From Bacillota bacterium (lineage in GTDB: Bacteria; Bacillota; Proteinivoracia; UBA4975; VEMY01): a DNA stretch of 36,804 nt. Each line of letters begins with the position of its first letter. Positions within the stretch are counted from its first letter, which is position 1. The notes under the pieces are model-generated. The model searched no databases and had not been told where the DNA came from. It saw nothing but the letters and a program-made list of their open reading frames with translations. Shown in pieces: positions 20,697 to 24,571 of the stretch. The DNA lies in the NCBI GenBank assembly GCA_009711825.1, contig VEMY01000029.1, forward strand, positions 1 to 36,804. The letters are read 5' to 3'. The position numbers and the translations under genes are program-made.

Positions 20697-20718
20697 GAAT
20701 ATACAAAACAATATTGAA

Positions 20719-20836
20719 GGTGCCTTCAGGGCCGGGTGCAATTCCCGACCGGCGGTAAAGCCCGCGAGCCCCCCACGGGGTTGATTTGGTGAAATTCCAA
20801 AGCCGACAGTAACAGTCTGGATGGGAGAAGGGACTT
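20719..20836 (+). ncRNA. FMN riboswitch (RFN element)
   Basis: The conserved RFN segments appear in order: CTTCAGGGCCGGGTGCAATTC, CCGACCGGCGGTAAAGCCCGCGAGC, a variable arm, TGATTTGGTGAAATTCC, then AAAGCCGACAGT and GTCTGGATGGGAGAAGG. P1 can form between CCTTC near 20723-20727 and GAAGG at 20827-20831. FMN binding turns off riboflavin synthesis or uptake genes; here the gene is ribU. Confidence 0.95.
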
Positions 20837-20921: not shown

Positions 20922-21530
20922 ATGGAACGTTCTTTGGCAACAAACAGGTCAATGGTCAGTTACTTAGTGAAAATCGGTTTACTTTCGGCACTGGCATTTA
21001 TCCTCATGTTTTTGGATTTTCCGATTCCGCTTTTCCCGGCATTTTTAAAGATGGATTTTGGCGATGTGCCGGCGCTGATTGCCGGGTTTTCACTGGGACC
21101 GGTGGCAGGTGTTTTTGTGCAACTGATTAAAAATATCCTGTATTTTTTCACCAAAAGTTCGACAATGGGTGTCGGTTCCCTGGGCAACTTCCTCACCGGC
21201 GTGACCTTGATTGTGCCTGCAGCCCTGATCTACCGGCGTATGCACACCCGAGGAGGCGCGCTCCTGGGAGTGCTGGTTGGAACTGCAGTTATGGCCCTGT
21301 TTATGGCCGTGTTCAATTACTACGTGCTGATACCTTTATACATCACCGTTCTGGGATTCAGCATGGAGGCCGTTGTTGGCATGGGGACCGCAGTGAATGC
21401 CAATATTACCGACCTGCGTTCACTTGTTATCCTCGGGGTCACTCCGTTCAACATCTTTAAGGGACTGGCTGTTTCATTGGTCACCTTCCTGCTCTACAAG
21501 CATCTATCGCCAATACTGCGTCAAAAATAA
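20922..21530 (+). CDS. ribU: Riboflavin ECF transporter S component RibU
   Basis: The 202-aa membrane protein has about six hydrophobic segments. The typical RibU features are LSALAFILMFLDFPIPLFPAFLKMDFGDVPALIAGFSLGPVAG near the N-terminus and NYYVLIPLY with a conserved loop. It binds riboflavin outside the cell and works with the shared EcfT/EcfA1A2 module, which is not encoded here. The FMN riboswitch upstream makes the substrate assignment strong. AAGGAGGAG precedes ATG 20922. Confidence 0.93.
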   Translation: MERSLATNRSMVSYLVKIGLLSALAFILMFLDFPIPLFPAFLKMDFGDVPALIAGFSLGPVAGVFVQLIKNILYFFTKSSTMGVGSLGNFLTGVTLIVPAALIYRRMHTRGGALLGVLVGTAVMALFMAVFNYYVLIPLYITVLGFSMEAVVGMGTAVNANITDLRSLVILGVTPFNIFKGLAVSLVTFLLYKHLSPILRQK

Positions 21531-21541
21531 ACTAATTGAAT

Positions 21542-21575
21542 CAGGGCGGCATTAGCTGCCCTGTTCTTTATTTGC
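21542..21575 (+). terminator. Terminator after ribU
   Basis: CAGGGCGGC (21542-21550) and GCTGCCCTG (21555-21563) pair with one G-U pair and an ATTA loop, followed by TTCTTTATTT. Confidence 0.75.
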
Positions 21576-21610
21576 TCGCTATGGTATATTCTTTTACAGA
21601 GGTGGTAAAC

Positions 21611-22690
21611 ATGCTGGAAAAATTGCGGACAAACCCCGTGCTTAAATTGATAGTACAAATAGTAGCAGCCATCCTATTAATAGTTCTGCTCTGGTTGTTC
21701 GGCGCAAAACTGTTGTCCATCCTGATGCCCTTCGCGATTGCCTTCACCATCGCCTATATCTTAAATCCGATGGTTGTATGGCTGCAAAAGCGTAAAATTA
21801 AACGTTTCATCGCTGTAATCATCATTTACTTTATTTTCTTCGGCTTGTTGTTCATGCTCTTCTCCCGACTGGTGCCGGCTGTGGTGGCCGAGGTCAACCG
21901 GTTTTCCGGCCACATCCCCAGGTACATTCAACAAGCCCAGGAGCTAATTCAAGAGTTTGAAGACGCACGTAACCATCTAGAGCTCCCAGACACAGTGCAT
22001 GAAGTAATCAATGACGGTCTGGCCTCTTTGGAGAGCACATTACTGACAACACTATCCAGAATCCCAGAGTATACAACCGGTTTTGCACGCTTTTTATTTG
22101 ATGTATTCTTGGTCCTGATTCTGACCTTCTATTTCCTTAAGGACTTCCACATTATCAAAAAGGGAATCCTCAATGCTATCCCCGCAAATCGCAAACACCG
22201 GGCATACAAAATCCTGCGGGAAATTGATCAAAGTCTTGGAAATTACATCCGGGGACAGTTGATTATCTGCTCAGTGATTGGCGTTTCAACATACTTGGGC
22301 CTGCTCGTCCTTGGCGTTGACTTTGCCATGATGCTGGGCGTTGTCGCCGGCGTTACCAACATCATCCCCTATTTTGGCCCCTTTATCGGCGCCTTCCCAG
22401 CAGTTATCGTCGCCCTGCTGCAATCACCGCTGATGGCCCTGAAGGTAGCGATTGTAATCACCGTAATTCAGCAGGTTGAAAGCCAGCTGATTGCACCCCA
22501 GGTCCTGGGTAAGCGCATGGGCATGCATCCCCTACTGGTAATCGGTGCCCTGATTGCCGGCGGTCAGTTCTTCGGTATTATCGGTATGGTAATCGGGGTG
22601 CCGGTGGTGGCAATTATCCGCGTGCTCATCCGCAATCTAAAGAACCCGTTTGGACAAGACGCCGCCACCCCTGGGCTTGCAAAAAAATAG
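21611..22690 (+). CDS. AI-2E/PerM family membrane transporter
   Basis: The 359-aa protein has seven to eight membrane segments in the PF01594 pattern. N-terminal helices contain AILLIVLLWLFGAKLLSILMP and IAFTIAYILNPMVVWLQ, then an extracytoplasmic or amphipathic section (RYIQQAQELIQEFED), and the C-terminal block GVVAGVTNIIPYFGPFIGAFP and IAPQVLGKRMGMHPLLVIGALIAGGQFFG is diagnostic. The family includes proposed AI-2 exporters and Na+/H+ antiporter relatives, and substrate cannot be deduced. ATG 21611 with GAGGTGG upstream is preferred to earlier in-frame starts that lack a site. Confidence 0.9.
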   Translation: MLEKLRTNPVLKLIVQIVAAILLIVLLWLFGAKLLSILMPFAIAFTIAYILNPMVVWLQKRKIKRFIAVIIIYFIFFGLLFMLFSRLVPAVVAEVNRFSGHIPRYIQQAQELIQEFEDARNHLELPDTVHEVINDGLASLESTLLTTLSRIPEYTTGFARFLFDVFLVLILTFYFLKDFHIIKKGILNAIPANRKHRAYKILREIDQSLGNYIRGQLIICSVIGVSTYLGLLVLGVDFAMMLGVVAGVTNIIPYFGPFIGAFPAVIVALLQSPLMALKVAIVITVIQQVESQLIAPQVLGKRMGMHPLLVIGALIAGGQFFGIIGMVIGVPVVAIIRVLIRNLKNPFGQDAATPGLAKK

Positions 22691-22700
22691 TCTGGAATCG

Positions 22701-22727
22701 AATAAGCCGGCCATGTGCCGGCTTATT
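22701..22727. terminator. Bidirectional terminator between convergent genes
   Basis: AATAAGCCGGC (22701-22711) and GCCGGCTTATT (22717-22727) form 11-bp perfect arms with a CATGT loop. The arms themselves provide the T/A flanks on both strands. It overlaps the stop of the minus-strand gene. Confidence 0.85.
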
Positions 22728-23550
22728 TTGTGTACATCAAGACCAAACCAAGGCCAGTCATCAGCAGTACCGCCAGCAAATAACTGCCGGCCAATACCGC
22801 TAAAGATGCCGGCAGAAGCGCCAGCAATGGGTAAGCGAATACCCGTCCAAAAAAGACTGCCGCCACCAAGATTCCGGTGAGGATTGCAACACCGGCGCCA
22901 CACCAAAGCTTGCAAACCCAGCCCAGGGTCTGAAAACGTCCCCGACGTCCGGCCAGACCGATGACCCCGTAGAGCATGAAAATCAATGACATGAAAAGCA
23001 AGTTGGCGAAGAGAGCGCGCCCCCGGAAATTTGGCGGCAGCCGCCCGGGCGTTTCAAAGGGCGCCAGTGCCTCCATAGCCACCCCCGCCGTCTCTGGCGC
23101 CGGACCCACTAGTACCAGCCAAACGCTACCAAACTGTGGATGATGGGGATGCCAGATTCCTGCCACAGGGAGCTCCATTGACAGACCGTCAATATCCAAT
23201 CCCAGAACATCACCCAAGCCAATACCCCGCCAGCGCCAGATCTCGTGGGATACCAACAGAAACATATCGCCGGATGTTAGGGTCGGCTCATAGCGCCACA
23301 GCCGGTCAGGATCCAGTCCGGCTGCACTTAATACATCCCAGTCCGGCACATGAATCACCTTGCTGTTAAATAAATCTGCAGTTCCCAGGATCCGGACTTC
23401 AGAACTGCCGGGATGCCACAGGCGCTGACTGCGTACCTGGGCATAATCGGGCATAAATCCGCAGGCCAGAATCATGCCGCTGATAATCCCGCTGAAAATA
23501 GAAAACAAAAGTACTCCCGCCAACGTGCGACTGTACAGGCTCTCACTCAT
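22723..23550 (-). CDS. Membrane protein of unknown function (275 aa)
   Basis: One hydrophobic segment lies near the N-terminus (AGVLLFSIFSGIISGMILACGF), followed by a soluble domain of about 130 residues and three to four C-terminal membrane helices (LLFMSLIFMLYGVIGLAG; VAILTGILVAAVFFG; LLALLPASLAVLAGSYLLAVLLMTGLGLVLM). I do not recognise it. ATG 23550 (MSESLYSRTL) is chosen because AAAGGA lies 9 nt upstream. It is divergent from the RnfD-like gene. Confidence 0.65.
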   Translation of the reverse strand: MSESLYSRTLAGVLLFSIFSGIISGMILACGFMPDYAQVRSQRLWHPGSSEVRILGTADLFNSKVIHVPDWDVLSAAGLDPDRLWRYEPTLTSGDMFLLVSHEIWRWRGIGLGDVLGLDIDGLSMELPVAGIWHPHHPQFGSVWLVLVGPAPETAGVAMEALAPFETPGRLPPNFRGRALFANLLFMSLIFMLYGVIGLAGRRGRFQTLGWVCKLWCGAGVAILTGILVAAVFFGRVFAYPLLALLPASLAVLAGSYLLAVLLMTGLGLVLMYTK

Positions 23551-23644: not shown

Positions 23645-23674
23645 ACTGGTAAAGCTTACACGGAGGGGAGAAAA

Positions 23675-24532
23675 ATGAAAATGATGCGTGGCCTGCTGCT
23701 GGCCCTAGTTCCGGCGACGGCAGCGGCCCTCTGGTATTTTCGCCTTGACGCCTTGCTTTTGATGGTGGTCAGTATTGTTTCTGCAGTCGGTGCTGAAGCG
23801 CTTTATCAGTTCATTTTCCGCAAACCGATTAAGATTAAAGATTACAGCGCTGTCGTTACCGGCTTGTTGCTTGCGTTAACGGTCTCGCCATCATTACCAC
23901 TGCCAATGATGGCGGCCGGGGCCGCCTTTGGTATTATCTTCGGCAAACAGGTGTGGGGAGGCCTGGGCAAAAATATCTTCAACCCCGCCCTCACTGGCAG
24001 GATTTTTATTGTCTTTGCATTTCCTGGTGCCTTGAACCCCTGGCTTTCGCCTGTGGAAATGGTAACCACGGCCACACCGCTGCAGGAATTTCAGTCTGAC
24101 GGGATAGTTGCGCCTCTGGTGGATTTGTTTACCGGCAATATCGCCGGCAGCATCGGTGAGACATCCGCGCTTCTTTTGCTTCTGGGCGCAAGTTTTCTGT
24201 TCTGGAAAAAGTTCGCCAACTGGCGGATCCCCGCCGGCATGATTGGGGCAGTAGCAGTCATCGCGCTCCTGTACGGAGATAATCCCCTTTTCCACATCCT
24301 TTCGGGAAGCCTGCTGCTGGGCGCCCTGTACATGGCCACCGACCCAATGACCTCGCCCAAAACCCAGAGTGGCCGCTGGCTGTTTGGAATCCTGGTGGGT
24401 ATTGTCTTGATGGGATTCCGTTATTACAGCACTTATCCCGAAGGCACCACCTTTGCCATTCTAATTGGCAACGCCCTGGTGCCGCTCATCAACAAATATA
24501 CCGCAAAAAAACCGCAAAAAAAAGTTGCCTAA
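23675..24532 (+). CDS. Stand-alone RnfD/NqrB-like membrane flavoprotein
   Basis: The 285-aa protein has eight or more hydrophobic segments and the NqrB/RnfD layout. GKNIFNPALTGRIFIVFAFP (98-117) and VTTATPLQEF (130-139) are the family's key blocks; Thr134 is the expected site of covalent FMN attachment by ApbE. YMATDPMTSPKT and the C-terminal FAILIGNALVPLINKY also match. Normally the gene sits in rnfCDGEAB or nqr operons that pump Na+ or H+ during electron transfer. None of the partners is in this window. GAGGGGAG precedes ATG 23675. It is the only gene before the terminator at 24536. Confidence 0.87.
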   Translation: MKMMRGLLLALVPATAAALWYFRLDALLLMVVSIVSAVGAEALYQFIFRKPIKIKDYSAVVTGLLLALTVSPSLPLPMMAAGAAFGIIFGKQVWGGLGKNIFNPALTGRIFIVFAFPGALNPWLSPVEMVTTATPLQEFQSDGIVAPLVDLFTGNIAGSIGETSALLLLLGASFLFWKKFANWRIPAGMIGAVAVIALLYGDNPLFHILSGSLLLGALYMATDPMTSPKTQSGRWLFGILVGIVLMGFRYYSTYPEGTTFAILIGNALVPLINKYTAKKPQKKVA

Positions 24533-24535
24533 AGC

Positions 24536-24571
24536 AAAGGTGTGTCTCCGCTAAAGAGACACACCTTTTTA
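24536..24571 (+). terminator. Terminator after the RnfD-like gene
   Basis: AAAGGTGTGTCTC (24536-24548) and GAGACACACCTTT (24556-24568) form 13-bp perfect arms, with T residues to 24570. It may also act on the convergent antiporter gene. Confidence 0.9.

Follow-up and report, generated by a model that had tools for sequence, protein, structure and literature searches.

A conserved stand-alone RnfD lineage that appears to lack the arms by which RnfD grips RnfC

The window analyzed here is a stretch of 36,804 nucleotides that constitutes the entire contig C29 of a 3.09-Mb, 77-contig genome (G000). On its forward strand it encodes a protein of the RnfD family, 285 aa long by translation, which scores 254.6 bits against the TIGR01946 rnfD model (curated cut-off 207.05) and 329.6 bits against PF03116 (cut-off 27.7; E 2.4e-98), so that the family match is far from chance. 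The features of this gene (hereafter, the orphan) and of its surroundings are as follows.

20718..20836, + strand: FMN riboswitch 5' of ribU (115.7 bits)
20922..21530, + strand: ECF S component, ribU-like (PF12822), called ribU on account of the FMN riboswitch
21536..22690, + strand: AI-2E/YtvI-like membrane protein between ribU and the orphan (profile matches)
22700..22728, no strand assigned: stable stem-loop between the ytvI-like gene and the facing gene (-18.6 kcal/mol, z -3.9)
22723..23550, - strand: predicted 275-aa membrane-like protein, divergent from the orphan, with no Pfam or NCBIfam match
23662..23666, + strand: ribosome-binding site GGAGG just 5' of the ATG at 23675, supporting a start without an N-terminal arm
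23675..24532, + strand: stand-alone, apparently arm-less RnfD (TIGR01946, PF03116, alignment, AF2 model)
23981..23983, + strand: Asn103 codon, equivalent to Asn124 in C. tetanomorphum and to Asn123 of A. woodii, a riboflavin ligand
24065..24082, + strand: TTATPL block, residues 131-136 (translation, alignment)
24074-24076, + strand: T134 codon, corresponding in the alignment to Thr153, which bears FMN in C. tetanomorphum RnfD
24341..24343, + strand: Asp223 codon, equivalent to Asp248/Asp249 (riboflavin site, proposed Na+ site)
24536..24568, + strand: intrinsic terminator with a 13-pair stem behind the orphan (consensus scan; -20 kcal/mol, z -5.8)

An earlier note on this DNA had described the protein as a solitary RnfD/NqrB-like subunit that keeps its flavinylation block, and both observations hold. 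The TTATPL block contains the [ST]xATPL FMN threonine of the RnfD family (T134), and the Asp and Asn of the family's riboflavin site are also in place (D223 and N103). No rnf gene lies beside the orphan: when RnfC, G, E, A, and B from the same genome served as phmmer queries, no match was returned among the ORFs of the window, and the gene has its own terminator. A strict consensus scan found no + strand promoter 5' of it. As the note had also stated, ribU is roughly 2 kb away, ending 2.1 kb upstream. The stem-loop at 22700-22728, which the consensus scan did not call a terminator, probably separates the ribU transcript from the orphan, and because this stem-loop and the facing gene set the ribU run apart, and a terminator follows, the orphan looks monocistronic.

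Proximity to ribU raises the question of flavin supply, in which the protein would carry or store flavin in the membrane and supply it to ApbE, RnfG, or RnfD. In a second genome of the window's order (G002), the FMN riboswitch and ribU directly abut the orphan, with 26 bases between ribU and the orphan. However, when orphan loci were scanned for riboswitches (36 loci, L212 and L230 left out, and some of them short), the FMN riboswitch was found at two, the window and L049, both from the window's order; the other 34, some with little upstream sequence, have none. The riboflavin link is therefore local to the window's order, and we rejected the ribU neighborhood as a general explanation. Covalent attachment, moreover, suits a fixed cofactor rather than a carrier, and we regard a role in flavin supply as improbable.

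The earlier note had proposed a genome-wide search for rnf subunits, ApbE, and FMN-binding proteins. All are present, and none could be tied to the orphan. Contig C26 holds a complete rnfCDGEAB operon (L016: 8094-14082) whose own rnfD is the only other PF03116 match in the genome, and both PF02508 (RnfA/E) genes of the genome are on that contig. The absence of Rnf that the note had implied is thus contradicted, and one half of what it had named as counting against its proposal, a full rnf operon including its own rnfD, exists in this genome; the other half concerns a lack of expression of this copy. The orphan is not the sole RnfD of its genome, nor is it encoded with rnfC, G, E, A, or B, as Rnf subunit D is. 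The two RnfD proteins share 48% identity, and this distance, together with their placement in separate groups of the tree described below, led us to reject a recent copy of the operonic gene. The genome also has two ApbE genes and further FMN_bind proteins outside the rnf operon, and its rnf genes, mrp-like genes (Mrp named by eye), and apbE form one long run.

To place the orphan among its relatives, we searched 119 related genomes and 398 genomes drawn from the phylum. Matches at 59-68% identity occur in nine further genomes, all without rnf neighbors, and one more match without rnf neighbors was found at 49% identity (G017:C12); the remaining matches listed are at 52% identity or below. The orphan is thus present in at least 11 of the 398 genomes, a count for which the neighbors of part of the 41-52% matches were inspected. 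It occurs in 2/8 genomes of the window's order and in 7/8 genomes of the family of G029. A scan of contigs from GTDB genomes (best 80 of 540 relatives) added further loci, giving 129 distinct RnfD-family ORFs, a non-random set selected for similarity to the protein of the window. An ORF was classed as operonic if rnfC, G, E, or A was found on its strand at a distance of no more than 1.2 kb and as orphan otherwise, which yielded 91 operonic and 38 orphan ORFs, with the orphan loci L192, L194, L212, L216, L218, and L220 being short or cut.

A tree of the protein core, with the arm columns left out, places all 37 orphans on one side of a single branch (SH-aLRT 100, stem 0.6), apart from the 91 operonic sequences; it was built by a quick method with SH-aLRT support from 128 rows, the fragment L212 having been dropped. 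Members of the orphan group come from records named Bacillota, Spirochaetota, and Bipolaricaulota, and the dropped fragment is titled Chloroflexota. Spirochaetota orphans adjoin a Halanaerobiaceae sequence in the tree, which suggests that the orphan may have been transferred between lineages. Among orphan pairs, the five with dS <1 have dN/dS of 0.042-0.112; when every pair for which dN/dS could be computed is included, many of them saturated, the range is 0.035-0.112. The group is under purifying selection. These values bear directly on the suspicion that the orphan is a decaying, functionless duplicate of rnfD, as might be expected of a single gene with no neighbor conserved across lineages among the loci listed and with a patchy occurrence in the window's order. 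Low dN/dS contradicts decay, as do the existence of one deep group in three phyla and the retention of the orphan by nearly all genomes of one family, and we consider this explanation hardly credible. The orphan belongs to a conserved stand-alone RnfD lineage and is no stray duplicate. A broken RnfD frame was seen elsewhere (L122:9268-11304, G063:C2), where internal stops interrupt the frame and an RnfG-like frame lies next to it; that genome has several further RnfD matches.

The most distinctive property of the lineage concerns the two ends of the protein. In the Rnf complex of C. tetanomorphum, the N-terminal 20 residues of RnfD are described as buried in RnfC and the C-terminal 10 as lying on the RnfC surface (structural description in PMC9588780), and both RnfD end loops of A. 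woodii are described as binding in RnfC cavities (account of RnfD in PMC11889175). We looked for these arms in ORFs taken from stop to stop, so that start-codon choice plays no part in the result. The N-terminal arm was scored as "PH" within 32 residues upstream of helix I, a position-based test adopted because an earlier, stricter expression (42/91 operonic and 0/38 orphan ORFs) missed true arms. "PH" is present in 84/91 operonic ORFs versus 0/38 orphans, or 0/35 if only the truly testable orphans are counted, L212, L216, and L218 being without the N-terminal part; the SPH motif of the Rnf subunit D arm is accordingly absent from the window's protein. Fifteen of the 38 orphan ORFs have <10 residues ahead of helix I, and five of the seven operonic exceptions have SPF, TPF, or APL instead of SPH. 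At the other end, a hydrophobic residue plus G, a motif selected after the tails had been seen, marks the C-terminal tail in 85/91 operonic sequences versus 0/36 orphans, the window's protein having no such tail; a stricter expression (G then E, K, or R) matched 57/91 operonic sequences versus 2/38 orphans. Judged from these motifs, the orphan group appears to be without both cytoplasmic arms by which RnfD grips RnfC.

The cofactor residues tell of retention rather than loss. The FMN threonine (Thr153 equivalent) is present in 37/38 orphans, the remaining one, a fragment, having Ser, and the equivalents of Asn124, Arg130, Glu185, and Asp248 are each kept in 38/38; the treatment of A. woodii RnfD in PMC11889175 has Asp249 and Asn123 binding riboflavin. 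A regional conservation comparison returned few orphan-specific positions (S71, L110, P122, S212, M248, and T258), too few to name an interface, and its topology boundaries were transferred by us from literature numbering. An AF2 model of the orphan has middling confidence (mean pLDDT 72, pTM 0.72), with pLDDT <50 for residues 121-134, which include the FMN threonine. Among the hits returned by Foldseek, to which the fold comparison (a second look) was limited, RnfD chains match best (9eri_D, Z 34.0, rmsd 2.7 Å, 282 aligned residues), and the alignment to 9eri_D begins at chain residue 21, which we read as the position after the arm.

The same fold comparison keeps in view a different kind of function, a flavin-gated ion channel or transporter with a urea/ammonium-transporter-like fold that was co-opted to maintain Na+ or pH balance in alkaline habitats. 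The fold is related to those of urea and ammonium transporters (Z about 12-14), a relationship also described for RnfD in the structural part of PMC9588780, and the equivalents of Asp248 and Asn124 are kept. Sample names also point to alkaline places: among the scan matches listed, record titles carry soda-lake or serpentinite tags for 25/27 named orphan loci versus 2/49 operonic loci, an operonic control that comes from the same scan, differs from the orphans in taxa, and shares L196 with them. Before identical proteins were merged, 29/32 orphan loci were tagged by our own reading of the scan matches listed, and the closest orphan relative of the window among them (L187) is a soda-lake assembly (CSSed10). 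The tags GEM2, PLM2, and DLM2, which account for five of the 25 orphan loci, we take to be Cariboo soda lakes. The sample naming CSSed, B1Sed10, HKB2xx, and BS5xx appears in the sections of the literature consulted, T1Sed10 appears there as T1Sed only, and CROMO and NSHQ14 are given there as serpentinite sites. This alkaline distribution is what keeps a sodium or pH role alive, but the habitat comparison spans differing taxa, the passages on RnfD in PMC11889175 report no Na+ path in the A. woodii protein, and the equivalent of Asn90, part of the proposed Na+ path, is Asn in 0/38 orphans, although this position is variable in operonic copies too. The retained FMN threonine argues instead for redox work, and we consider a channel or transporter distinctly unlikely.

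Redox work would require partners, and these were sought in the genomes that carry the orphan. PF02508 was found in 11/11 orphan genomes of one set and 31/32 of the other, or 37/38 after merging, since five genomes are in both sets by matching coordinates; the one genome without a match is a 1.6-Mb assembly that may be incomplete, and the genome of L212 has weak PF02508 matches only (best 59.6 bits). A run of rnf genes is present in seven of the 11 (G000, G002, G017, G029, G144, G215, and G291), and outside these seven PF02508 is no proof of Rnf, because the family covers RnfA/E and NqrD/E alike. For comparison, 68 of the 119 relatives have any RnfD match. Because the orphan genomes are related, the joint occurrence of the orphan and Rnf-type genes is no more than suggestive. 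ApbE is present in 11/11 orphan genomes; FMN_bind proteins, sorted by our own reading into loose kinds, include one of 135-169 aa in 7/11 and a mostly two-domain one of 259-327 aa in 10/11. No neighbor family is common to the orphan lineages among the loci listed, and those that recur group by close relatives. In three loci of one genus (L104, L105, and L107), the orphan has as neighbors a TPP riboswitch, a thiW/thi-like cluster, and a 2-oxoacid:acceptor oxidoreductase-like pair (names by eye).

The co-occurrence of the orphan with Rnf-type genes equally allows the orphan to be an exchangeable Rnf subunit that replaces operonic RnfD under some condition, such as high pH, low Na+, or a particular flavin status, giving an Rnf without firmly held RnfC and with another electron acceptor. 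The retained cofactor residues fit such a role, as does L196 (2898-9792), where 1.4 kb separates the orphan from a downstream rnfC operon that has an rnfD of its own; among the listed loci, no other close pair was found. On the other hand, both RnfC-holding arms are gone, and L196 is the sole orphan locus among those listed with rnfC, rnfE, or rnfA in the fetched stretch. We rate the exchangeable subunit as a rather unlikely explanation.

Since both flavin sites are retained while both grips on RnfC are gone, the orphan is most simply read as a solo transmembrane two-flavin wire that operates outside the canonical Rnf pathway and has another cytoplasmic partner, a proposal whose chances we put a little short of even. 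The protein would have ten membrane helices and is predicted to bind two flavins, an FMN that ApbE attaches to Thr134 close to the outer face and, close to the inner face, a riboflavin. Because both arms are absent, that is, the N-terminal arm buried in RnfC and the C-terminal tail lying on it, the orphan should not pass electrons to RnfC and NAD in the manner of RnfD. Its most likely outer partner would be a flavinylated shuttle with which it exchanges electrons. This shuttle may be RnfG of the accompanying Rnf, favored because Rnf-type genes co-occur with the orphan, or a different FMN_bind protein; on the inner side, the orphan would serve a carrier other than RnfC. Against a solo wire, no partner is linked by gene order and neighbors differ among lineages, the PF02508 co-occurrence may mean that the orphan works inside Rnf and not beside it, occurrence in the window's order is patchy, and the AF2 model is least certain around the FMN threonine. 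The extracytosolic flavin-based electron route suggested in the earlier note is plausible given a conserved solo lineage; its candidate distant partners were not tied to the orphan. A more specific form of the solo wire, which we offer as a tentative possibility, is a one-subunit, two-flavin conduit derived from RnfD by loss of the arms that dock the NAD module, spread among phyla in alkaline habitats, branching off Rnf at the outer FMN shuttle, and exchanging electrons, in one direction or the other, with an acceptor in the cytoplasm or membrane that is not NAD.

Comparison with known systems helps to define what the orphan may be. With RnfD (C. tetanomorphum 7zc6_D and A. woodii 9eri_D) it shares family, fold, FMN threonine, riboflavin-site Asp and Asn, Arg130, and Glu185, and it differs in the missing N-terminal RnfC-docking arm and C-terminal hydrophobic-G tail, the absence of adjacent rnf genes, and its separate tree group. 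Family and fold make it an RnfD, but by its complex-binding features it is not an Rnf subunit. NqrB of Na+-NQR has the same fold (Z about 30) and shows a MATDP block in alignment with the orphan, and its FMN residue is presumably a threonine, as in the orphan. NqrB chains are longer, however (415 aa versus 285 aa), and no nqr genes were seen beside the orphan. The sections of an NQR review that deal with NqrB describe FMN attachment by threonine and a quinone site built from two additional N-terminal helices (PMC12174285), helices that have no counterpart in the orphan. An RnfD-type membrane part outside the six-subunit complex also occurs in an NQR/RNF-like two-subunit system, for which one-way electron export is proposed and in which a PF00175 NAD-binding domain is fused and the FMN threonine lost, as portrayed in portions of PMC8238504 and PMC10979944. 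The orphan has PF03116 only, with no C-terminal PF00175, and keeps the threonine, which rules out its assignment to that system. Listeria-type flavin-based extracellular electron transfer uses ndh2, eetA/B, demethylmenaquinone genes, and pplA, and is not known to include an RnfD-type wire. It is akin to the orphan in ApbE-type flavinylation and ECF flavin transport, two traits covered in the relevant part of PMC9973259.

In the open-licence papers searched, we found no description of such a stand-alone RnfD. Whether RnfD/NqrB proteins carry electrons only or also ions is disputed, with two published views as set out in the RnfD sections of PMC9588780 and PMC11889175, and a natural RnfD without an operon or RnfC docking could let this dispute be tested on one protein. 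If the orphan does act as a wire, it would represent a transmembrane flavin conduit of very small size, and anaerobes living in alkaline places would possess a branch of Rnf bioenergetics that has gone unrecognized.

Several FMN_bind genes encountered in these genomes deserve mention in their own right. RnfG of the main rnf operon in the window's genome (L016:10335-11999, 554 aa) has five tandem FMN_bind domains, as does that of G002. Elsewhere in the window's genome (L175:8414-10155, G000:C38), a small FMN_bind lipoprotein-like gene adjoins a gene for a lipoprotein-like FAD-binding protein, possibly an extracytosolic flavin reductase pair, with functions assigned by eye. In three genomes of family f21 (L065, L172, and L173), the rnf operon is rnfC-D-E-A-B without rnfG, and in five (L167-L171) an apparent Mrp antiporter operon elsewhere (Mrp by eye) begins with a gene that is RnfG-like and encodes two or three FMN_bind domains.
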